Shown here: positions 46,509 through 58,498 of the stretch, in pieces
Layout of the letters: every line of letters begins with the position of its first letter
How positions within the stretch are numbered: the stretch's first letter is position 1
From: Peptococcaceae bacterium
GTDB taxonomy: Bacteria > Bacillota > Dehalobacteriia > UBA4068 > UBA4997
Assembly (NCBI GenBank): GCA_022797295.1
Contig: JAAWKH010000005.1
Location: 1-64,000, forward strand
Direction of reading: 5' to 3'
Length of the DNA stretch: 64,000 nt
Position numbers and translations under genes: made by a program
The notes under the pieces: generated by a model
What the model was told of the DNA's origin: nothing
The model's input: the letters and a program-made list of their open reading frames with translations, nothing else
Databases searched by the model: none

Positions 46509-47981
46509 TTACATTATTGTGCTCACCAAGCTAACCAGCTTATAAACAGAATCAGACATATAAGCCAGCAGCATATTTGGCTGCAAACCAAAATAAATTG
46601 TCAAAATCAGCAGAACCAGCATTGGCGCCAGCTCATACCAATAAATATCCTTGCAATCCGTCAGGCCAGTCGGCAAAGAGCCAAAGGCCACCCGCTGAAA
46701 GGCCCAGAGATAATAACCCACGGCCAGCACCGCGCCCAAAGCCACCAGCAACACCAACCAACCAAAAGCATGATAAACACCAAGCATAACGGAAAATTCC
46801 GCCAAAAAACCCATAAAACCGGGAATACCCATTGAAGCGAAAAAGGCCAAAACCAGCATTGTCATAGCCGCTGGCATTTTGCCATACAGCCCGCCCAAAC
46901 GGCTAATTAAACGAGTTCCAGCATGGTGTTGGATAACGCCACAGCCCATAAACAGCATAGCAGAAATTAAACCGTGCGCCACCATCTGGAAAACTGCGCC
47001 CATCACGGCATGTTCCTCAAAGCTGGCAATGCCAATCAGCACAAAACCCATATGACTGATTGAGGAATAGGCAATCAGTTTTTTCAAATCATCCTGTGTA
47101 AAGGCGGCAAAGGAACCATAAACAATGCTGAGCAGAGCCAGCACCACCACCAGCCAGGTATATTGCTGAGCAGCCTGTGGATTAATCAGATAAGCCACTC
47201 TAATCAGGCCATAACCGCCCATTTTTAACAGCACGCCGGCCAGCAACACCGAAGCCGCCGTTGGCGCTTCCACGTGCGCGTCTGGCAGCCAGGTATGCAC
47301 CGGCACCACCGGCAGCTTAACGCAAAAGGCAAACAACAAAGCCGGGAATACCAACAGCTGAAAACTCAAATCAAAGCCAACTGAAGTGATTTCTGGAATT
47401 GAAAATGTGTAATATCCCAGAACATCAGCCGCCTTAAAGTACATCGCACCAATAGCCAGCAGCATAATCAGCGAGGCAACGTGCGTGTAAATCAAAAACT
47501 TCATAGAGGCATAGCTGCGACGCTCACCGCCCCAAATGCCAATCAGGAAGAACATTGGAATTAAAACAATTTCCCAGAATATATAAAACAGGAAGAAATC
47601 CAACGCCGAAAAAACACCCAACACACCGGTTTCCAGCAGCAATAGCAGGCCGTAATAAAACGGCGCGCGTTCTGTTACATCCCAAGAATAAAGTACCACC
47701 AAAAAACATAGCAAAGTGGTTAGCATAAACAAAGGTAAGGAAAGGCTGTCCAAGCCCACCGTGAACGACACGCCAAAAGCTGGGAACCATTCGGTATCCT
47801 GCCAAAATTGATAATCGGTCGTGGATAGATCATAACCAGCCAACATCACCAAGCTGCCCAACAACACCGCGCCGCTGCACAACAAGGCAACATATTTAGC
47901 AAGCTGCGGCTGCTTTGCCAAAAACAACATTAGCAACGCGCCAAGCAAAGGTAAAACAAGCAAAATCGTGATAATACTCAA
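46509..47981 (-). CDS. nuoM: Complex I subunit NuoM (second copy, operon end)
   Basis: A 490-residue antiporter-like proton channel of complex I with about 14 membrane helices. The key residues are present: Glu in FWEIVLIPMF, Lys in CVKLPVVPVHTWLPDAHVEA, and the DDLKKLIAYSSISHMGF segment. It is a paralogue of the nuoM at 49458-50963, and nuoN lies between them. Start is TTG with AGAGGTG 8 bases ahead. Because both copies keep the ion-path residues, both are probably structural pump subunits rather than a decayed duplicate. Confidence 0.93.
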   Translation of the reverse strand: MSIITILLVLPLLGALLMLFLAKQPQLAKYVALLCSGAVLLGSLVMLAGYDLSTTDYQFWQDTEWFPAFGVSFTVGLDSLSLPLFMLTTLLCFLVVLYSWDVTERAPFYYGLLLLLETGVLGVFSALDFFLFYIFWEIVLIPMFFLIGIWGGERRSYASMKFLIYTHVASLIMLLAIGAMYFKAADVLGYYTFSIPEITSVGFDLSFQLLVFPALLFAFCVKLPVVPVHTWLPDAHVEAPTAASVLLAGVLLKMGGYGLIRVAYLINPQAAQQYTWLVVVLALLSIVYGSFAAFTQDDLKKLIAYSSISHMGFVLIGIASFEEHAVMGAVFQMVAHGLISAMLFMGCGVIQHHAGTRLISRLGGLYGKMPAAMTMLVLAFFASMGIPGFMGFLAEFSVMLGVYHAFGWLVLLVALGAVLAVGYYLWAFQRVAFGSLPTGLTDCKDIYWYELAPMLVLLILTIYFGLQPNMLLAYMSDSVYKLVSLVSTIM

Positions 47982-48008
47982 TTAAAATACACCTCTCTTT
48001 CGCCCGAT

Positions 48009-49457
48009 TTACCAAGGCATCCAAGGCGACACAAAACTGGCCGCACCTGTGCAAATTTCCGTCAGCAAGTTAGGCAACAAGCCCAGCCCCAGCAACAACG
48101 CTACCGCCAACCAAACGGCCAGTAAATAAGACTTACCACTGCCGGTTGCAGGCAAAAGTTCCTGCTCTGCCGGGCGCATATACATCTCCCTGATTACCGC
48201 TGCATAGTACACCAACGAGAGCGCGCTGTTCAGCACCAAAATCAACGCCAGCACTGTATACCAACCGCCCAGGCCCACAGCGGAAACCACCATTAGCATT
48301 TTGCCCCAAAAGCCCAGCAGAGGCGGAACACCGCCAAAGGAAAGCAACAACAGCATCATAGCTGCGGCCAAAGCTGGCATTTGCTTGCCCAACCCACGAA
48401 AATGCCGCAAGCTGGTGCCGCCCTTGCGCTCCAGAACCAGCTGCAAAACAAAGAAACAGGCAATCGCCATCAAAGCGTGCGCCAAGATGTGCACAAAGGA
48501 ACCAACCACACCTGAACCGCCAACCACAAAACCAACGCCAATGTTGCCGGCGTGCGCCACACTGGAATAAGCAATCATTCGTTTAACATCCTGCTGTTTC
48601 AAAGCCAGCACGTTGCCAACAGTCATCGTAACAACACAAAGTAGGCCTAAAAGCAAGCTGGCTAAAGGTGAAAGCACCGCGGCGTAAACAACAATGATTT
48701 TCAGAGCCACCACAAAAGCGCCTTTTTGCGTCACACCGGATAAAAAGCCGGTGGTTGGCGAGGATGAACCGGTGTAAGTATCCGCAGCCCACCAATGGAA
48801 AGGCACCAGTGCCATTTTGTAACCAAAACCAGCCAAAAGCAGCACCAAAGCTAGCACCAAAACCGGATGGACGCCCAGCATAAACATAACCTCGCTGCAA
48901 GCCACCAAATTAAGGGTGCCGGTAAAACCATATAATAAGGATAGACCATACAAAATCAGAGCTGAGGCAAACGCACCGCTCAGGAAATATTTCAGAGCAG
49001 CCTCCCCACCGTGCGGATTATCAAGCTCCGCCATTGGCAACACGTAAGTGGCAATGCTCACCAACTCAAATGCCACCAGCATCGTGATAAAATCAGTGGC
49101 GCTGGGAATTATCAACAAACCCAACATTGCGGTAAGCAGCAAGGCGTAATATTCCTTGGCGCGATACACCTTATCCGTAAAATCGTGCGAGCCGATTACA
49201 TTCAGCAAGGCCAGGCCCAGCAACAACACCTTGATAAATACTGCAAAATTATCAATCGAATATGCGCCGTCCATTATCACCACATTGGTATTCCACAAGG
49301 ACAAACACATAGCCAAATCCACAGCTAAACCACCGGACGCCAACAACCAAGCCATTTTATGCGCCCGGCGCGGCAGCAGCATAACAAAAATCGCCATAAG
49401 CAGCAGCAACAGCTCCGGCAGCAATAAAATCAACTGTTCGAGAGTCAGTGAATTCAT
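48009..49457 (-). CDS. nuoN: Complex I subunit NuoN
   Basis: A 482-residue antiporter-like subunit, the one nearest the peripheral arm. The conserved Lys lies in GYKMALVPFHWWAADTYTG and the KQQDVKRMIAYSSVAHAGN segment is present. It starts directly after the stop of the upstream nuoM and precedes the second nuoM by 27 bases. Length matches the family. Confidence 0.93.
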   Translation of the reverse strand: MNSLTLEQLILLLPELLLLLMAIFVMLLPRRAHKMAWLLASGGLAVDLAMCLSLWNTNVVIMDGAYSIDNFAVFIKVLLLGLALLNVIGSHDFTDKVYRAKEYYALLLTAMLGLLIIPSATDFITMLVAFELVSIATYVLPMAELDNPHGGEAALKYFLSGAFASALILYGLSLLYGFTGTLNLVACSEVMFMLGVHPVLVLALVLLLAGFGYKMALVPFHWWAADTYTGSSSPTTGFLSGVTQKGAFVVALKIIVVYAAVLSPLASLLLGLLCVVTMTVGNVLALKQQDVKRMIAYSSVAHAGNIGVGFVVGGSGVVGSFVHILAHALMAIACFFVLQLVLERKGGTSLRHFRGLGKQMPALAAAMMLLLLSFGGVPPLLGFWGKMLMVVSAVGLGGWYTVLALILVLNSALSLVYYAAVIREMYMRPAEQELLPATGSGKSYLLAVWLAVALLLGLGLLPNLLTEICTGAASFVSPWMPW

Positions 49458-50963
49458 TTAGCTCACACCTCCCAACAAGTCGATAATATATCCGGTGCTT
49501 TGAGCAATCATATCCGTAACCGGAGCCGGATAAACACCAAGCAGCAACACCAACAAGCCCAACACCAGCAGGGGCAATGTTTGAAACCATTGCAAATCGT
49601 GCGGCTTTTTCTCAATCAAATCCGTTGAGGGCTGGCCAAAATAAGCTCGCTCCAATGCCCAAAGATAATAAGCAGCCGTCACAATCATCGAAAGCATTGC
49701 AATCACCGTCAGCAGCTTGTTAGCGCTGAACGCACCCAGGAAAACCTGAAGCTCCGGGATAAAGCCCAATAGGCCTGGCAAGCCCACAGAGGCAAAGAAA
49801 GCAAAAACTGTTAAAGCGGAAAGCCTTGGCAAAACCGAGGCCACACCACCCAAATCGCCAATCCGCCGCGTGCCAACACTGTGCTGCAAAATACCGCAGA
49901 CCATAAAGAGCATAGCAGAAATTAGCCCATGCGCAAACATCTGCAACACTGCGCCGTTAAACGCCCTTTCCTGCAACATCGCCAAACCAAACAACAACAG
50001 ACCCATATGGCTGACAGAAGAATAAGCAATCATCTTCTTCAAATCATCCTGAGCCAAGGCCAGCAACGCCCCATAAAGCATGCTGATAATGCCCAAAATA
50101 GCCATCGGCAAAGCATAATGCACCGCCGCCTCTGGCAGTAACGCAAAAGCAATGCGCACCAAGCCATAGCCACCCATTTTCAACATAACAGCCGCCAGGA
50201 AGACAGAACCGCCGGTGGGCGCCTCCACGTGAGCATCTGGCAACCAGGTATGAAATGGTACTGTAGGAATTTTGACGGCAAAACCAAAGAACAAAGCCGG
50301 GAAAATCAAATACTGCAAATTCAAAGGCAGTTTTACATACTCGCTAATAGTCAAAATATTAAAGCTCATTTGCCCTAGTTCACCAGCCGCGCTAAACACA
50401 ATAGCGAAAATGCCAACCAGCATTATCAACGAAGCCACGTGAGTGTAAACGAAGAATTTAATGGCCGCATAACGCCGGCGCGGGCCGCCCCACCCTAAAA
50501 TCAGGAAATACATTGGTATCAAAACCAATTCCCAGAACAAATAGAACAGGAAGAAATCCAGCGCCGCAAAAACACCAAAAAGGCCACATTCCAAAAGCAG
50601 CAGCAGTGTGAAATACGTGCGCAAATCTTTGTGTTCATCAAAGGAGAGCAACACCACCAAAGGCGTGAGCAAGCTGGTAAGGAAAATCAACGGCATACTC
50701 AGTCCGTCCAAACCAACTGTGTAAGTTATACCTAGCGAGGTAATCCAATCTTGCAAGGTTAAAAATTGAAACTCGCCAGCTGGTAACAAATAGTCATATC
50801 GAACCAGCATTAATAGATTTACCAGCAGTGGCAACAGAGAAACCACCAGGGCTAAGCATTTCACAAAAGCTGGCTTTTTGTTCAGTGTGCCGCCAACAAA
50901 AACCACCGCAGCTCCTAGCAGAGGTAAAAACAGCAGAACGTTAAGCAAGTTTAATTCGTTCAT
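49458..50963 (-). CDS. nuoM: Complex I subunit NuoM (first copy)
   Basis: A 501-residue antiporter-like subunit. Glu in FWELVLIPMYF, Lys in AVKIPTVPFHTWLPDAHVEA and the DDLKKMIAYSSVSHMG segment mark an active proton path. Its ATG at 50963 overlaps the nuoL stop (ATGA), and the upstream-open frame inside nuoL is not used. With nuoL, nuoN and the other nuoM it gives the operon four pump subunits rather than three. Confidence 0.94.
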   Translation of the reverse strand: MNELNLLNVLLFLPLLGAAVVFVGGTLNKKPAFVKCLALVVSLLPLLVNLLMLVRYDYLLPAGEFQFLTLQDWITSLGITYTVGLDGLSMPLIFLTSLLTPLVVLLSFDEHKDLRTYFTLLLLLECGLFGVFAALDFFLFYLFWELVLIPMYFLILGWGGPRRRYAAIKFFVYTHVASLIMLVGIFAIVFSAAGELGQMSFNILTISEYVKLPLNLQYLIFPALFFGFAVKIPTVPFHTWLPDAHVEAPTGGSVFLAAVMLKMGGYGLVRIAFALLPEAAVHYALPMAILGIISMLYGALLALAQDDLKKMIAYSSVSHMGLLLFGLAMLQERAFNGAVLQMFAHGLISAMLFMVCGILQHSVGTRRIGDLGGVASVLPRLSALTVFAFFASVGLPGLLGFIPELQVFLGAFSANKLLTVIAMLSMIVTAAYYLWALERAYFGQPSTDLIEKKPHDLQWFQTLPLLVLGLLVLLLGVYPAPVTDMIAQSTGYIIDLLGGVS

Positions 50964-52852
50964 AAGCAGCTCACCCCTCCAATCGCCACCAATAACAGTA
51001 CAAACACCCCAGCCAGAACCAAGGCCAGATAACCCTGCGAGCCACCGGAGGCATAACGCCGCATATAACCGCCAAATCCGCCAACCACAAAGCAAAAACC
51101 GCGAACCAGACCGTCAACTACATTATAATCAAACCAACGGCAGAAATCAGCCAACCAAATATTCAGCTTTGCCAGCAAATTTACCAGTCCGTCAATCACA
51201 TATTTATCTATTACATCCGCTAACTCCGCAAAGCGAACCGCAAACCAGTAAGAGATTTTTTCATACAAGCGGTCAATATAGTAGCGATTCAACAACAGCT
51301 TGTGAAGCGGCCCGCAGGTTTGGGCCACCTTTTCCGCCGAAAAAATATTGAAGAAATAAACCGCCGCCGAAAGGCCAATGCCCAGCACCACCGCCACAAT
51401 GGAAATAATCATTGGAAAATGCGTGGAAGCTTCATGTGCATGACCTGTAAGCAATACTGTCACCGGCTTAGTCAACGCGCCACTGCCCAAGGCAAAGAAG
51501 GCCAACACAACCAACGGCGCAATCATCGGCAGGCTACTTTCGTGCCCATGGTAATCGCCGCGCTTCGGCCCGCAGAAAACCACAAAGAACAAACGGAACA
51601 TATAAAAAGCCGTCAAAAAACTGGTTAAAGCCAGCAGCCAGAACACCGGCGGCGCCGCCTCATAGGCAGCCAGCAAAATTTCATCCTTACTCCAAAAACC
51701 GGCAAACGGCGGCAGGCCGGCAATGGAAACCGTGGCACAAAGGATAGTTAAACCCGTCACCTTTTGGTATTTCAACAAACCGCCCATTTCATAAATATCA
51801 TTAGTGCCAGTGCCATGAATGGCCGAACCAGCTCCCATAAACAACAAGGCCTTGAAAAAAGCGTGATTAATCAAATGCAAAACTGCCGCCACATAATTCA
51901 GCGAGCCCAAGGCCACCACCATAAAACCCAGCTGGCTAAGCGTGGAAAAAGCCAAAATCCGCTTAAAATCACGATTGACCACCGCCATTAAAGCGGTACC
52001 CAAAGCGGTGACAGTACCAATCACCAGCATAAAATCTGTTGTCTTGGGCGTTAATAAGAACAGCGGGAATAAACGCGCGCAAAGATAAATGCCAGCCTTA
52101 ACCATCGTGGCTGCGTGAATCAATGCGGAAACCGGCGTGGGGCCCTCCATCGCGTCTGGCAGCCAAACATGCAATGGGAATTGAGCAGATTTACCAATAA
52201 CACCGCCAAAGATGCACAAGGTAGCAATCGTCAACCAGAAAGGATCATAGCTTCCGGCTGCGGCCTGGCTCAACATCACGCTATATTCCACACTGCCAAA
52301 CATATCAAACAGCAAAATAATGCCAACCAACATCACCACATCGCCGACGCGCGTCACCAAAAAAGCTTTTTTAGCCGCGGCCGCCGCGCTGGGTTTAAAG
52401 AACCAAAAGCCAATCAACAAATATGAGCACAAGCCCATAATCTCCCAAAAGATGAAAGCCTGCAACAGATTGTTGGCCAAAACCACTGACAGCATGGAAA
52501 AGACGAACAGCTGCACCTCAGCAAAAAAGCGCAACAAACCGCTTTCGTGCTCCATATAACCGTAGGCATAAAGCAAAATTAAAGTTGCCAAAAACGATAC
52601 CAGCAGCAGCAACAGCAACGATAGCTTATCCAGCAAAAAGCCAAATTGCAAATCACCAAACCAAGTGAACGACAGGCTGGCAACCTCGCCGCCAAACACT
52701 GCCGGCGCACAGGCCACTGCCAGAACAAACGAAGCAACCGTGCCGCATATGCCCAGCCAGGCCGATTTCAAACCTAGCTGTTTGCCAAAGGCCAGCGTCA
52801 GCAACAGTGTCGCCAAAACCGGTAATGGTATTAACCAAAAATAAACCAGCAT
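50960..52852 (-). CDS. nuoL: Complex I subunit NuoL with lengthened lateral helix
   Basis: A 630-residue distal antiporter-like subunit. The core shows EIMGLCSYLLIGFWF, GKSAQFPLHVWLPDAMEGPTPVSALIHAATMV and FKRILAFSTLSQLGFM. The C-terminal part carries the lateral helix that runs along the membrane arm. There, residues 542-567 and 568-593 are a tandem duplication: VIDKYVIDGLV aligns with FDYNVVDGLV at an offset of 26. Counting from the YYID motif to the C-terminus, it is about 30 residues longer than Escherichia coli NuoL from memory. GGGAG precedes the ATG. Confidence 0.94.
   Translation of the reverse strand: MLVYFWLIPLPVLATLLLTLAFGKQLGLKSAWLGICGTVASFVLAVACAPAVFGGEVASLSFTWFGDLQFGFLLDKLSLLLLLLVSFLATLILLYAYGYMEHESGLLRFFAEVQLFVFSMLSVVLANNLLQAFIFWEIMGLCSYLLIGFWFFKPSAAAAAKKAFLVTRVGDVVMLVGIILLFDMFGSVEYSVMLSQAAAGSYDPFWLTIATLCIFGGVIGKSAQFPLHVWLPDAMEGPTPVSALIHAATMVKAGIYLCARLFPLFLLTPKTTDFMLVIGTVTALGTALMAVVNRDFKRILAFSTLSQLGFMVVALGSLNYVAAVLHLINHAFFKALLFMGAGSAIHGTGTNDIYEMGGLLKYQKVTGLTILCATVSIAGLPPFAGFWSKDEILLAAYEAAPPVFWLLALTSFLTAFYMFRLFFVVFCGPKRGDYHGHESSLPMIAPLVVLAFFALGSGALTKPVTVLLTGHAHEASTHFPMIISIVAVVLGIGLSAAVYFFNIFSAEKVAQTCGPLHKLLLNRYYIDRLYEKISYWFAVRFAELADVIDKYVIDGLVNLLAKLNIWLADFCRWFDYNVVDGLVRGFCFVVGGFGGYMRRYASGGSQGYLALVLAGVFVLLLVAIGGVSCL
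51074..51229 (-). repeat. 26-codon tandem duplication in nuoL (lateral helix)
   Basis: Within the NuoL C-terminus two 26-residue units follow each other: the first begins AELADVIDKYVIDGLVN and the second ADFCRWFDYNVVDGLVR. At an offset of 26 the pairs A/A, E/D, L/F, A/C, D/D, V/V, I/V, D/D, G/G, L/L and V/V align. The duplication is visible in protein; the DNA copies have diverged. Confidence 0.75.
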
Positions 52853-52906: not shown

Positions 52907-53359
52907 TCAGGAATTATTCGCGGTGGCTTCAGGCTCCACCTCACCGGAAAGCTCCTCCACCACTTGCCAATCGTCATCATTTTGCATTGTTTCTAACATT
53001 TGAGCATAGGTCTTACCCTCCCAAGGCTCAATGTTTACGTTATAGCTGAGCACAGTGTCTTCCAAGCTGAGCTGTCCAAAATCCCCCAGTTCCTTTTCCC
53101 GAATCAAATAAGCCGTGGCTGCGTGATCCTGCGTATCAAAGGTTTGAGAAAAACGCATGGAAACCAACTTGCCCTGTTCCCATGTCATCGTGCTGGTAAC
53201 ATAGGTCATCCCATTTTCCAGATTCACATATTGCTCCACCACCAGCACGGCGTCCTTGCCTGGCTCAGGCTCAGTACAAGCCGTAAGCAAACCTAAAAGC
53301 AGGGTTAACAGCAACAAGGCTTTAACAAATTTCTTCATATTATAATAATACAATTTCAT
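52907..53359 (-). CDS. Small lipoprotein encoded inside the nuo operon
   Basis: A protein of about 150 residues with a lipoprotein signal (LLLTLLLGLLTAC) and an outer-surface domain of about 120 residues that I do not recognise. It contains ENGMTYVTSTMTWEQGKLVS and an acidic C-terminus. It resembles small Firmicute lipoproteins of the YehR/DUF1307 kind only in size and style. ATG 53359 (MKLYYYN) has GGTAG upstream; ATG 53338 gives a tidier signal peptide but has no ribosome site. It lies between nuoK and nuoL, an unusual place. Confidence 0.65.
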   Translation of the reverse strand: MKLYYYNMKKFVKALLLLTLLLGLLTACTEPEPGKDAVLVVEQYVNLENGMTYVTSTMTWEQGKLVSMRFSQTFDTQDHAATAYLIREKELGDFGQLSLEDTVLSYNVNIEPWEGKTYAQMLETMQNDDDWQVVEELSGEVEPEATANNS

Positions 53360-53384
53360 AAGCCATCTACCCCAACAAATCCAA

Positions 53385-53810
53385 TCAACCGCGCAGGAAG
53401 TGGAACTGTTCCACATCAATAGTGCCATTGCGGCGATACAAATACAAACCAATCGCCAAGCCCACAGCCGCCTCAGCCGCGGCCAGAGCCAACACGAATA
53501 TAGCCATCACACTACCAGAAGCCTGACCCAAATATTGACCAAAAGCCAAAAAGTTGATATTAGCCGCATTCAACATCAATTCTATAGAAATGATTAAAGC
53601 AATTAAATTGCGCCGCGTCATCACACCCAGCAAACCAATCGTAAACAATGCTGCGGCCAGCAACAAATAATGCGTCAGGCTAAGATGAAAAACGAAGTAA
53701 ACTCCCTCGCTCAACATAGCGCCAAAATCCAGGCTACCCAGCCAATTACCAACCGCCGCCAAAAATGGCAGCAACAGATTGTTGATAATTCTTTCAATCG
53801 TATCCAGCAT
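53385..53810 (-). CDS. nuoK: Complex I subunit NuoK with N-terminal extension
   Basis: A 141-residue small membrane subunit. The core has LFTIGLLGVMTRRNLIALIISIE and ELMLNAANINF with the two conserved membrane Glu residues, and AAAEAAVGLAIGL. The usual length is about 100 residues; here about 40 extra residues (LDTIERIINNLLLPFLAAVG onward) precede the core. The ATG overlaps the nuoJ stop (TGATG), so coupling supports the long form, although Met32 could be an internal start. Confidence 0.92.
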   Translation of the reverse strand: MLDTIERIINNLLLPFLAAVGNWLGSLDFGAMLSEGVYFVFHLSLTHYLLLAAALFTIGLLGVMTRRNLIALIISIELMLNAANINFLAFGQYLGQASGSVMAIFVLALAAAEAAVGLAIGLYLYRRNGTIDVEQFHFLRG

Positions 53811-54361
53811 CAGGCAACCCTCCCCTGCTCGCTATTTTCAGCTTTTTCCGGCTCAGTGGCTGTCATAATCGCCGCCACCAAAGCAGCCAACAGCAACATT
53901 GCCATCGCCTCAAAGGCTATCACATATTGATTGAGCAGTCCATCGGTCAGCTCCGTATAGGGCAAAGGCGAATTTTCCGCCGTTTCACCCATCAACGGCC
54001 AGCCAGTAAAATGAGTATAAAGGATAGTGCCCACCAAACAACCACCCACTAAAACTGCTGCAAAAGTGCTGCCCAACCATTTATGCCGCCACTTATTAGT
54101 GTGCGCCATATCGCCGGAACGACGATTGATTAAAAACAAAGCCAGCACAATCAAAATAGCCACCGAACCTGCGTAAACAATCACCTGAACGCCGCCTAGA
54201 TAATCCGCCTGCAAGCTGAAATAAACCCCAGCCACGCAGAGCAACGCCGCAATAAATGATAAAAAAGCGTGAATCATATTCCGAAAAACCAAAGTCCCCA
54301 GGGCAAACAACAGCAACAAACCGCCCAAAGCCCAAAAGGTTAAGGTTTGTAAAATCTGCAT
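53810..54361 (-). CDS. nuoJ: Complex I subunit NuoJ
   Basis: A 183-residue membrane subunit with five helices. The conserved segment DYLGGVQVIVYAGSVAILIV contains the pi-bulge helix of NuoJ that couples quinone chemistry to pumping. It overlaps nuoI (ATGA) upstream and nuoK downstream. Confidence 0.92.
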   Translation of the reverse strand: MQILQTLTFWALGGLLLLFALGTLVFRNMIHAFLSFIAALLCVAGVYFSLQADYLGGVQVIVYAGSVAILIVLALFLINRRSGDMAHTNKWRHKWLGSTFAAVLVGGCLVGTILYTHFTGWPLMGETAENSPLPYTELTDGLLNQYVIAFEAMAMLLLAALVAAIMTATEPEKAENSEQGRVA

Positions 54362-54849
54362 CAGGCATCTCCTCCTTTGGCCGAACTTTCAGCTGATACG
54401 ACCGGCTTTGGAGCCGGCTTCGGCAACGGCGGCTTAGCGCCATATTTGGAAAGTGACTGCTCCATATTGCTCTGGGCCAACAAATCCTGTGGCACATCAG
54501 CCGCAGCATAAACTGCCGTTTCAAATTCCTGCGTTAAGTGCAAGCAGCTTTTTGGACAAGCCTCCACACACAACCCACAAAACAGGCAATATTGCCTCTC
54601 CATCACAAATTCCGTGCAGAATTTTTTATTGTTCTCATCCTTATCAAACTTCTGCCGTATAACCTTGTTCGGGCAGGCCATTGCACAAAGGCCACAGCTA
54701 ATACAAGCCTCCTTGTCTAGCGCAAACGTGCCACCCCGCCAACGCGCAGGCAGCTGAGGCTTTTCCTCTGGGTACTTTTCCGTTAGACGCGGACTCACAG
54801 CCTCCTTGGCCGTAACCCCCAAGCCTTTAAGAATACCCTTTCCAAACAT
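54361..54849 (-). CDS. nuoI: Complex I subunit NuoI (2[4Fe-4S])
   Basis: A 162-residue iron-sulfur subunit of the connecting part. Two cluster motifs are seen: CISCGLCAMACPNKV and CLFCGLCVEACPKSC. A Pro/Lys/Ala-rich C-terminal tail of about 30 residues is an addition to the usual core. With NuoEFG missing, this is one of the entry-side iron-sulfur proteins and a candidate contact for ferredoxin. Confidence 0.93.
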   Translation of the reverse strand: MFGKGILKGLGVTAKEAVSPRLTEKYPEEKPQLPARWRGGTFALDKEACISCGLCAMACPNKVIRQKFDKDENNKKFCTEFVMERQYCLFCGLCVEACPKSCLHLTQEFETAVYAAADVPQDLLAQSNMEQSLSKYGAKPPLPKPAPKPVVSAESSAKGGDA

Positions 54850-54908
54850 ATCGCCACTTCCTTTTATATATAAACACCTAATAATGAAAATTCAATTAAA
54901 TTTAGACT

Positions 54909-55958
54909 TTATGCTAAAATATACAAAACCACGCCAGTCACCAGCATATTAAGCAATGTCAGCGGTACCAGCAGTTTCCAGCAAAAACGCAACACATAGT
55001 CAGCCCGAACACGCGGCAAAGTCCAGCGCACCCAGATAAAAATTGACATAATCACAAACGTTTTTAGAATAAACCAAAGCCAGCCCGGCAAAAATGGCCC
55101 GCTAAAACCACCCAAAAACAGAGTTGTTGCCAAACCTGCCGCCACAAACATATTACAATATTCGGCCAAATAAAACAGAGCATAACGCATACCGGAATAT
55201 TCGGTGAAAACGCCTGCCGTCAGCTCGCTTTCACCCTCCGGCAAGTCAAACGGGGCGCGATTACATTCCGCTACAGCCGAAATTATATAGATAACAAAAG
55301 CCAGCGGCTGCACACAAACCAGCCACAAATGCTGCTGTTGAAAATGCACAATCTCCGTCAAATTAAAGGTTCCGGCCACCATAATCACGCTTAAAATGGC
55401 AAAAGCCTGCGGCACCTCATAACTAATGGCCTGGTTGACCACACGCATGCCGCCCACCAAAGAATATTTGTTGTTTGAGGCATAACCAGCCAACAACACC
55501 GGCAAGGAAGCCAACGTGGTGACAGCAATTACATAAACCACACCCAGCTGCAAATCCAACGCCGCCATCCCCTCGCCAAAGGGAATTGCCGCCAAAGCCA
55601 ACATTGGCGGTACAAAAGCCAACAAAGCAGCCAGCAAATGCACCGGCTTATCCGCCTTATCCGGCACAATGTCCTCTTTCATCACCAGCTTGATGGCGTC
55701 GCCAATGGTTTGTAGCCAGCCGTTTGGTCCCAAACGGTTTGGCCCGGGCCGCCGCTGTATGTAGCCGGCCAGCTTGCGCTCCCAAATTACGTAAAAAAGG
55801 GCGCACAGCACACAGACAATCACAATGGCCACCCAGTACACAGCCACCATCAAAACATCCGTCAAACCAAGCGGCAAGCCTAAAAGCCCCAGTAGCCAAT
55901 CAAAGACCCAACGGATTAAACCAGCAATATTAACAAAAATATTGTTAATAAATTCCAT
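54909..55958 (-). CDS. nuoH: Complex I subunit NuoH
   Basis: A 349-residue membrane subunit that forms the quinone chamber with NuoB and NuoD. IQRRPGPNRLGPNGWLQTIG and the acidic loop AECNRAPFDLPEGESELTAG are the family signatures. Their presence supports a quinone acceptor rather than a hydrogenase function. Length is normal. Confidence 0.95.
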   Translation of the reverse strand: MEFINNIFVNIAGLIRWVFDWLLGLLGLPLGLTDVLMVAVYWVAIVIVCVLCALFYVIWERKLAGYIQRRPGPNRLGPNGWLQTIGDAIKLVMKEDIVPDKADKPVHLLAALLAFVPPMLALAAIPFGEGMAALDLQLGVVYVIAVTTLASLPVLLAGYASNNKYSLVGGMRVVNQAISYEVPQAFAILSVIMVAGTFNLTEIVHFQQQHLWLVCVQPLAFVIYIISAVAECNRAPFDLPEGESELTAGVFTEYSGMRYALFYLAEYCNMFVAAGLATTLFLGGFSGPFLPGWLWFILKTFVIMSIFIWVRWTLPRVRADYVLRFCWKLLVPLTLLNMLVTGVVLYILA

Positions 55959-55988
55959 ATTGTTTTCCTCTATTTATATATATATTTT

Positions 55989-57110
55989 TTAACCGTCAAT
56001 CTCACCCAAAACTATATCAAAGCTGGCAATGATGGAAACCAAATCCGCCACCTTGTGCCCTGGCATAATCTTTTCAAATATCGCAATGTTATCAAAAGAA
56101 GGACGGCGAAAATGCACTCGCAGCGGGTTCAGTTTGCCCTCCGAGGCCACCAGACAGCCCATAATCCCCTTGGGATTTTCTGTCTGCGCGTAAGCCTCGC
56201 CAGCTGCCGGCTTCAGCACCTTAGGAATTTTCGCCATAATCTCACCAGCCGGTTCAGCCTGCAAAGCTGCGTAAATTTCCTTAATCAGCTGCAAAATCTC
56301 CTCGCACTCCAACATTCGTTGCATATAACGCGCGTGACAATCGCCAGCCGTCAGCACCGGCACCTTAATATTAAAGCGGTCATATAAGCAATAAGGCGCG
56401 TCGCGCCGCAAATCATAATCCACGCCGGAAGCCCGCAAATTAGGACCGGTCAGCGCGTAATCCATTGCATCCTCCGCACTGATTACACCAATGCCTTTGG
56501 TACGCGTCAGGAAAATCTCATTTTCATCAATCAGCTTGTGATACATCTCAATGAAACGCGGCACTTCATCAAACAGCTTTTGCATTGTTGCGTCAAATTC
56601 TTCATTAATATCAGCTTGCACCCCGCCATAGCGAATATAGCTTTGGGTCATCCGCGCGCCACACAGCGCAGACATACAATCCAACGCATATTCACGCTGC
56701 TGAAACGGATAAAACACGCCAGAAACCGCGCCAAGATCCATAATATAAATGCCAATGCCTACCATATAAGAGGCCAGGCGCATAATCTCGCAGGTCAACA
56801 TCCGCAGCAGGTTGGCCCTGGCCGGCACCTCCACCCCAAGCAGCTTCTCCACCGCCAGTACATAAGGCAGATTGTTGTTAACCCCAGCCAAATAATCTAA
56901 ACGATCAGTGTATGGCAAACCTTGCAAATAAGTACGACTTTCCAGCAGCTTTTCCATACCCCGGTGCAGATAGCCAATTTTGGTATCTACACCCACGCAG
57001 GTTTCACCGTCCATCTCCACCAGCATATGCAAAACGCCGTGCGTGCTGGGGTGCTGCGGGCCAAAGTTCAGCTGATAAACCTCGCTGTAATGACCGTTTT
57101 CATTTGTCAT
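55989..57110 (-). CDS. nuoD: Complex I subunit NuoD
   Basis: A 49-kDa-type subunit of about 373 residues. FGPQHPSTHGVLHMLVEMDGE carries the quinone-site histidine loop. The [NiFe]-hydrogenase nickel cysteines are absent, which separates it from group 4 hydrogenase large subunits. ATG 57110 is used; a TTG three codons upstream overlaps the nuoC stop. It is a separate gene, not fused to nuoC. Confidence 0.94.
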   Translation of the reverse strand: MTNENGHYSEVYQLNFGPQHPSTHGVLHMLVEMDGETCVGVDTKIGYLHRGMEKLLESRTYLQGLPYTDRLDYLAGVNNNLPYVLAVEKLLGVEVPARANLLRMLTCEIMRLASYMVGIGIYIMDLGAVSGVFYPFQQREYALDCMSALCGARMTQSYIRYGGVQADINEEFDATMQKLFDEVPRFIEMYHKLIDENEIFLTRTKGIGVISAEDAMDYALTGPNLRASGVDYDLRRDAPYCLYDRFNIKVPVLTAGDCHARYMQRMLECEEILQLIKEIYAALQAEPAGEIMAKIPKVLKPAAGEAYAQTENPKGIMGCLVASEGKLNPLRVHFRRPSFDNIAIFEKIMPGHKVADLVSIIASFDIVLGEIDG

Positions 57111-57115
57111 ATTAA

Positions 57116-57589
57116 TCAATCCAGCCGCCTCCTGCCCTGATATTTGGTGGGCTGATGCACAAAATCCTTGCGTAGCGGCCAGCCCTCAAAGCCCTCCCAC
57201 ATCAAAATACGCTCCAATCTGGGATGATTTTTAAACACAATACCAAACATATCGTAAACCTCGCGCTCCAGCCAGTTGGCCGCCGCCCAAACCGGACAAA
57301 CACTTTCCACCAACGGCTCGTCGCGAGAAACATCAACTTTCAATACAATAATATCACCGTTTTGGTAGTTGCAAACCTGATACAGCAGACGAAAATAACC
57401 TTCATTTAAATAATCAACCGCTGTAATATCCGCCAAAAAAGCATAACCGGCGGCTTTCAGTTCCTGGCAAATCGGTAACAAGGCTTGTAACGACATCACC
57501 CTATATTCACAGTCCGTATCCGGCAACAGCTCCACCATCTGTGAAAATTTTTGCTGCACCATTGCGGCAACTTCCTGTTTACTTAACAT
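57116..57589 (-). CDS. nuoC: Complex I subunit NuoC
   Basis: A 30-kDa-type subunit of 157 residues. The signature [20 protein letters not shown] is followed by [16 protein letters not shown]. The frame is open far into nuoB, but ATG 57589, with AAGGTGG nearby, gives the family N-terminus and overlaps the nuoB stop. Confidence 0.93.
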
Positions 57590-58151
57590 CTCGCACCACC
57601 TTTTGCCTTTCAGGATACCGCAGCTTGGCTTTAAGCTGCAACATACCGTCGATGATCGCCTCCGGCCGCGGTGGGCAGCCTGGAATATAAACGTCCACCG
57701 GCACCACCTTATCAGCTCCGGCCACCACGGAATAGGAATCCACAAAGGGGCCGCCACTGATGGCGCAACTGCCAATGGCAATCACCCATTTAGGCTCCGG
57801 CATTTGATGATATAAAAGCTCTACAGAGGGGCGCATTTTTTCGGTTATCGTACCCGCCACCAGCATCACATCCGCCTGCCGGGGCGAGTTGCGGAAAACC
57901 TCAAAGCCAAAGCGCGACATATCAAAACGGCTTTGCGTGGTGCAAATCATTTCAATGGCGCAGCAAGCCAGACCAAACTGCAATGGCCAAAGCGACCATC
58001 CTGTGCCCCAACGAAACAATTTATCCAAGCTGGTGAACAAAATGCCCCGGCTTTCCAATTCCTCCGGCGTTAGCAAATCATGAATTTGGCTGGGGTCACC
58101 GTCCGGCATACCAACCTTGCGCGGAAACAGAATATTCGTTTTCAGTGCCAC
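57579..58151 (-). CDS. nuoB: Complex I subunit NuoB
   Basis: A 190-residue subunit holding cluster N2, which passes electrons to quinone. The ligand cysteines are in [20 protein letters not shown] and PGCPPRPE. It overlaps nuoA by 10 bases and nuoC by 11. Slightly longer than the family average at the N-terminus. Confidence 0.95.
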
Positions 58152-58498
58152 TGCAACGCACCCTCCTTCCAGGCATAGACCAAGCCAGCTGATAAAATGC
58201 CGATAAACACAAACATTTCCAAAAGGGCTGCCAATCCCATTTTAGTGAAACACAGCGCCCAAGGCAACAGAAACATTGTTTCAACATCAAATAAAAGAAA
58301 AATCAAACCAGTCACAAAATAAGACGGTTTGAAGCGCACCCAAGCATCACCCAGTGGCAGCATACCGCACTCATAGGTGATATTTTTTTGTTTGTAAGGA
58401 TTGTGCGGCTGCAACAAGCGGGAAACTATCAGCGCCGCGCAAGCAAAAAACACTGCGCCGATAAACAGCAAGCCTACAGCTGCGTATTGAACCAACAT
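58142..58498 (-). CDS. nuoA: Complex I subunit NuoA
   Basis: A 118-residue membrane subunit with three helices. [20 protein letters not shown] is the conserved loop with the key Cys, and [12 protein letters not shown] the acidic helix. It is the first gene of the complex I operon, with AAGGAGAAAAGG before the ATG and a promoter about 60 bases upstream. Confidence 0.94.

Follow-up and report, generated by a model that had tools for sequence, protein, structure and literature searches.

Insertions in the lateral helix (HL) of the antiporter-like subunit NuoL have so far been used as a structural argument for a fourth pump in complex I that has a second NuoM (2M complex I). The locus described here raises the question of whether the length of HL testifies to the number of pumps, and of how the added length arose. 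It lies in a stretch of 64,000 nucleotides from a Peptococcaceae bacterium, referred to below as the window. A sequence-only reading of this DNA had proposed that the added length comes from an internal tandem duplication, and that a fourth pump requires an insertion of this size.

The complex I cluster of the window

The cluster is encoded on the reverse strand in the order A-B-C-D-H-I-J-K-L-M-N-M. The genes nuoA, B, C, D, H, I, J, and K (53385..58498, with nuoA at 58142-58498 and nuoK at 53385-53810) were assigned by reading of the open reading frames, and recovered nuo clusters elsewhere when used as queries. They are followed by nuoL (50960..52852), which encodes an antiporter-like protein of 630 amino acids with a C-terminal HL and TM16, recognized from its reading frame and its PDB matches, the best of which are NdhF/NuoL/ND5. 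The ATG of nuoM1 (49458..50963, 501 amino acids) overlaps the stop codon of nuoL. The antiporter-like nuoN (48009..49457) lies between nuoM1 and nuoM2, the latter being 3' of nuoN (46509..47981, 490 amino acids). Both nuoM genes score above the cut-off of TIGR01972 (NDH_I_M), and two such genes are likewise found in six tested members of the genus and in another genome of the same order (G013). By reading of the open reading frames, the cluster contains no nuoE, nuoF, or nuoG. The genome has a single NuoF-type (PF01512) gene, located on a different contig in a frame of 602 residues (G000:C34:41540-42055, L235). A small lipoprotein-like open reading frame with an LLTAC motif (52907-53452) is located between nuoK and nuoL. 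The genome also has a further pair of antiporter-type genes, in frames of 821 and 506 residues (G000:C22:14095-18379; L004 and L006), which is probably Mrp-like.

L, M1, N, and M2 make up a set of four antiporter-like subunits in which all checked pump residues are intact. NuoL keeps the residues corresponding to E144, D178, K229, H254, H338, K342, and K399 of the E. coli protein, and M1 and M2 both keep the proton-channel residues E144, K234, K265, H322, H348, and E407. The cluster is that of a 2M complex I, and its gene content suggests that four pumps would be assembled in it. The L-M-N-M order, with nuoM2 after nuoN, is confined to the window genus and G013 among the 2M clusters found; all others have the L-M-M-N order of the known 2M complexes.

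A 26-residue repeat in HL

In the AlphaFold model of the window NuoL, HL is a single unbroken helix of 78 residues (residues 523-600; 51053..51286, reverse strand), predicted at modest confidence (pLDDT mostly 68-82 over the block and 53 over the last ten residues) in a monomer model. HL is also 78 residues long (538-615) in a monomer model of a two-unit NuoL from a cluster with a single nuoM (L067). The check proposed with the sequence-only reading, that the repeat be helix rather than loop, thus came out in favor of helix, and the continuous helices of the two models speak against a loop. A helix of 26 residues has a calculated length of ~39 Å, roughly that of one antiporter subunit.

The two matching units noticed earlier are present at an exact spacing. 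Within residues 542-593 (51074-51229), the motifs IDKYVIDGLVN (548-558) and FDYNVVDGLVR (574-584) are separated by exactly 26 residues. An offset-26 self-match and the family profile delimit unit 1 as residues 544-569 (51146..51223, reverse strand; LADVIDKYVIDGLVNLLAKLNIWLAD) and unit 2 as residues 570-595 (51068..51145, reverse strand; FCRWFDYNVVDGLVRGFCFVVGGFGG). In the motif of unit 2, R takes the place of N in the window genus and in G013. The best self-offset of the window HL is 26, with 7 of 26 residues identical and a BLOSUM score of 22. Taken by itself this signal is weak, since 65 of 2000 shuffles score as high (p ~0.03), as might be expected of chance similarity inside an amphipathic helix. 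Against chance, when 35 two-unit HLs are combined in a gapless profile, the best-segment score is 50.0 at offset 26 and at most 8.3 at all other offsets (15-39), and the D, D, and V of the motif are invariant in both units of the single-nuoM set. The offset scan rules out a chance repeat, an explanation to which we give almost no weight. Because offset 26 dominates the profile, the repeat is a genuine feature of the family.

HL lengths fall into two classes

The survey of HL length took in 153 distinct NuoLs, some from the phylum of the window and others from named genomes across many phyla. Length was measured between a YYID anchor and a QTGxxQxY anchor; ~38 rows in which the regular expressions for the anchors failed or misfired were classed by eye. 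The lengths are quantized at 51-53 or 77-80 residues, with nothing convincing between, the outliers being due to mis-set anchors. The survey comprises 99 one-unit and 54 two-unit NuoLs. The QTGxxQxY motif, which anchors TM16, looks alike in both classes. The window HL measures 77 residues from anchor to anchor and that of E. coli 48 (counted from the sequence), a difference of 29 that agrees with the ~30 residues estimated from the sequence alone. Three relatives from the same class with a single nuoM (G035, G037, and G039) have an HL of 51 residues with one motif, so that the window HL is longer by exactly 26, and cyanobacterial NdhF has exactly 26 residues fewer at the site of the repeat. 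The structures from E. coli (3RKO), T. thermophilus (4HE8), and cyanobacteria (NdhF1, 6HUM) share the fold, pump residues, HL, and TM16 with the window NuoL, but have one docking unit and 48-53 residues between the anchors, as against two units and 77 residues.

All ten 2M clusters in the survey are two-unit. So is the Nitrospira 2M NuoL (L236), in which a second, degenerate unit at +26 was read by eye, likening it to the window protein. Chadwick et al., writing in the ISME J in 2018 (doi 10.1038/s41396-018-0210-1; cited in PMC9040806), are said to have described 2M complex I with a second NuoM and ~26 added residues in HL. 2M complexes with HL insertions of ~26 residues are already known, and the window resembles them both in the second NuoM of its cluster and in the extra length of its HL. 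The view that the insertion is what a fourth pump needs stands in so far as the window cluster has four antiporter genes and 26 residues more than its single-nuoM class relatives; it does not stand as to specificity, the length being not specific to the number of pumps.

Two-unit helices in clusters with a single nuoM

A two-unit helix of 77 residues also occurs in 35 L-M-N clusters that are fully visible and contain a single nuoM, found in Omnitrophota, Zixibacteria, KSB1, Ignavibacteria, Planctomycetota, Armatimonadota, Symbiobacterium, and other Bacillota. Single-nuoM relatives with the same repeat had been named beforehand as the observation that would speak against the fourth-pump claim; these 35 clusters lie outside the close kin, and in the order to which the window belongs every relative with a window-type NuoL is 2M. 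Exactly one gene above the NDH_I_M cut-off is present in eleven Bacillota genomes, three of which are single contigs (G340, G225, and G400). Three nearly complete genomes of Bacillota (G078, G408, and G296), the only ones covered by completeness figures (96-99%), combine a two-unit NuoL with only three PF00361 (Proton_antipo_M) genes, for L, M, and N. The same holds genome-wide for three metagenome-assembled genomes from other sources (G429, G439, and G432, with NuoLs L067, L077, and L070). Since these six genomes have no antiporter-type genes besides L, M, and N, no unlinked fourth antiporter can be invoked for them, within the limits of draft genomes that apply to all these counts. FCB-type genomes do have a second NuoM, which in the loci read is mostly part of a second complex I whose NuoL has one unit. 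These second complexes and the three-antiporter genomes counter the idea of an unlinked second nuoM in single-nuoM genomes with two-unit helices. One Ignavibacteriae genome (G453) has, besides a two-unit L-M-N cluster, a lone nuoM with no nuo genes nearby (L238, 4349-5896), which is a candidate unlinked second M. Because the two-unit helix occurs with one nuoM and only three antiporter genes, a fourth pump cannot be diagnosed from the HL insertion.

Both motifs are equally conserved in the two-unit NuoLs of single-nuoM clusters, with both Asp and the Val at 100% and Asn at 95-99% in each unit. The V-N pair is kept in both units in 35 of 39 such NuoLs vs. 1 of 12 from 2M clusters, a comparison in which the 2M rows represent ~4 fast-evolving lineages, are not independent, and include an archaeal NuoL that keeps both pairs (L064). 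The difference is suggestive only of a situation in which both sites hold the same NuoM in single-nuoM complexes, and in which each has adapted to its own paralogue in 2M complexes.

A separate observation, made on the NuoMs of L189, L190, L080, L126, and others, concerns the TM7 lysine of NuoM (E. coli K234). Leu takes its place in 52 of the 95 NuoMs whose clusters have a one-unit NuoL (GFGxLxxxxPFHxWSPD) and also in M2 of Chloroflexi 2M clusters, but the residue is Lys in 41 of 41 NuoMs of single-nuoM two-unit clusters.

Origin of the units and of the second NuoM

A duplication that could be read directly in the window NuoL had been claimed. The two units are identical at 7 of 26 positions, and a unit resembles its partner in the same protein no more than it resembles units of other proteins (similarity 32.4 vs. 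34.0), which does not bear out that claim and speaks against a recent, lineage-specific tandem duplication. Like-positioned units are more alike (42.6 for unit 1 with unit 1, and 39.0 for unit 2 with unit 2), and the window pair is among the least alike (score 8, rank 38 of 41). In one-unit NuoLs the unit aligns with unit 1 and unit 2 to the same degree, and the best site for a 26-residue gap is a broad plateau, as would be expected for a tandem copy. Any duplication is old, occurs in other lineages too, and can be made out only in the profile of the family.

A tree of the NuoL core, from which HL was excluded, does not unite the two-unit NuoLs in one clade. It requires 6-9 changes of state, and an AU test rejects a single clade (p = 2.7e-5), ruling out a single vertical origin of all two-unit helices; transfer, gain, and loss are inseparable. 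The HL module is old, and several gains, losses, or transfers are needed for its present spread. The window NuoL and both NuoMs (46509-52852) group with archaeal homologues (Methanomassiliicoccales, Thermoplasmata) and not with the class relatives, with a support of 100 for NuoM and weak support for NuoL. This grouping of NuoL and NuoMs from gut Bacillota suggests transfer between domains.

M1 and M2 of the window are 49% identical, and those of its lineage group together in an archaeal-like clade (FastTree 95; SH-aLRT 85), the support for their sister grouping being moderate in the better tree. The second nuoM of this lineage thus appears to be a duplicate of the nuoM that the lineage already had. 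For M2 of Chloroflexi and Nitrospira the trees point to a distant clade of NuoM, so the 2M state would have been reached in the window lineage by a different route.

These results bear on the proposal that an internal duplication in the window lineage lengthened HL as a fourth pump joined, so that the length testifies to the fourth pump. The step from one unit in the single-nuoM class relatives to two in the window and the two units of all 2M clusters are in its favor. The 35 L-M-N clusters with two-unit helices, the three-antiporter genomes, the lack of any excess similarity within proteins, and the placement of the window NuoL with archaeal NuoLs (with weak support) rather than with its class relatives make it improbable.

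HL units as putative docking sites for NuoM

HL of E. coli has a kink after P564, and of all HL residues, L565 and N566 have been reported to lie nearest to NuoM (PMC3274701). The kink residues align with V-V-D of the motif, with L565-N566 opposite V-D. Since a unit aligns with this contact, it is probably a docking site for NuoM. We propose that HL of a 2M NuoL would consist of two docking units of 26 residues, each ending in a kink at which the motif F/I-D-x-x-V/I-V/I-D-G-x-V-N is located. One unit would correspond, by the alignment, to the place where the E. coli helix contacts NuoM, and each M would be clamped by its own unit. The two-unit helix, with its additional 26 residues or ~39 Å, would then span L-M-M-N rather than L-M-N; it is an old module common to many lineages with one nuoM gene. 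Taken together, a 2M NuoL with two docking units, an old shared module, and a second nuoM derived by duplication within the lineage constitute the reading that we favor, with a probability of about 0.68. For two-unit complexes, neither a solved structure nor a stoichiometry was found, and the closest solved NuoLs checked are all one-unit.

Two-unit helices with one nuoM stand against this proposal, since a rule of one unit per M gene fails unless NuoM is used twice. Single-nuoM complexes with two-unit helices may indeed incorporate the product of one nuoM twice (L-M-M-N), with 2M complexes as later two-gene versions. The six genomes with a two-unit NuoL and three PF00361 genes are consistent with this, as are the equal conservation of the two units, the retention of V-N in both as if the same surface were faced, and the similar TM16 anchors of the two classes. 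The V-N comparison weighs less for its few, fast-evolving 2M lineages and the L064 exception, and NuoM would need one face that accepts either L or M and another that accepts either M or N; we regard double use of NuoM as possible, though we would not wager on it. More generally, HL might be a modular ruler with one 26-residue unit per NuoM, single-nuoM two-unit complexes holding NuoM twice, a generalization that we consider doubtful. Alternatively, the longer helix of single-nuoM complexes could extend past NuoN towards NuoK/J/A/H, in which case its length would not be tied to the number of pumps. The genomes with a two-unit NuoL and L, M, and N alone would fit this geometry, as would Ca. Manganitrophaceae, in which Complex_I_1, Complex_I_2, and Complex_I_3 all have a 26-residue HL insertion and the first two have canonical gene content (PMC9040806). 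The authors left the meaning of the insertion in these two complexes open; Complex_I_3 has five pumps and carries the insertion on MrpD2, a feature of that complex, the insertion itself being common to this group and the window (PMC9040806). Against an extension past NuoN, the motif aligned with the contact to NuoM is present in both units, the step in length is fixed, and the TM16 anchor looks unchanged, and we consider such an extension unlikely.

Implications

What the present analysis adds to earlier knowledge of 2M complexes is the fixed step of 26 residues and its breadth among single-nuoM clusters, genomes in which a two-unit helix goes with just three antiporter genes, and the contrast between single-nuoM and 2M NuoLs in how well the motifs are conserved. 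The same insertion, in exact steps of 26 residues, is found in numerous complexes from genomes that lack a gene for a fourth antiporter. If these complexes use NuoM twice, the proton stoichiometry assumed for large bacterial groups would need revision; if they do not, HL length is uncoupled from the number of pumps. If HL did measure out one unit per NuoM, counting 2M genes would greatly underestimate how common four-pump complex I is, and the use of two separate nuoM genes, as in the 2M complex of the window, would be a later development.
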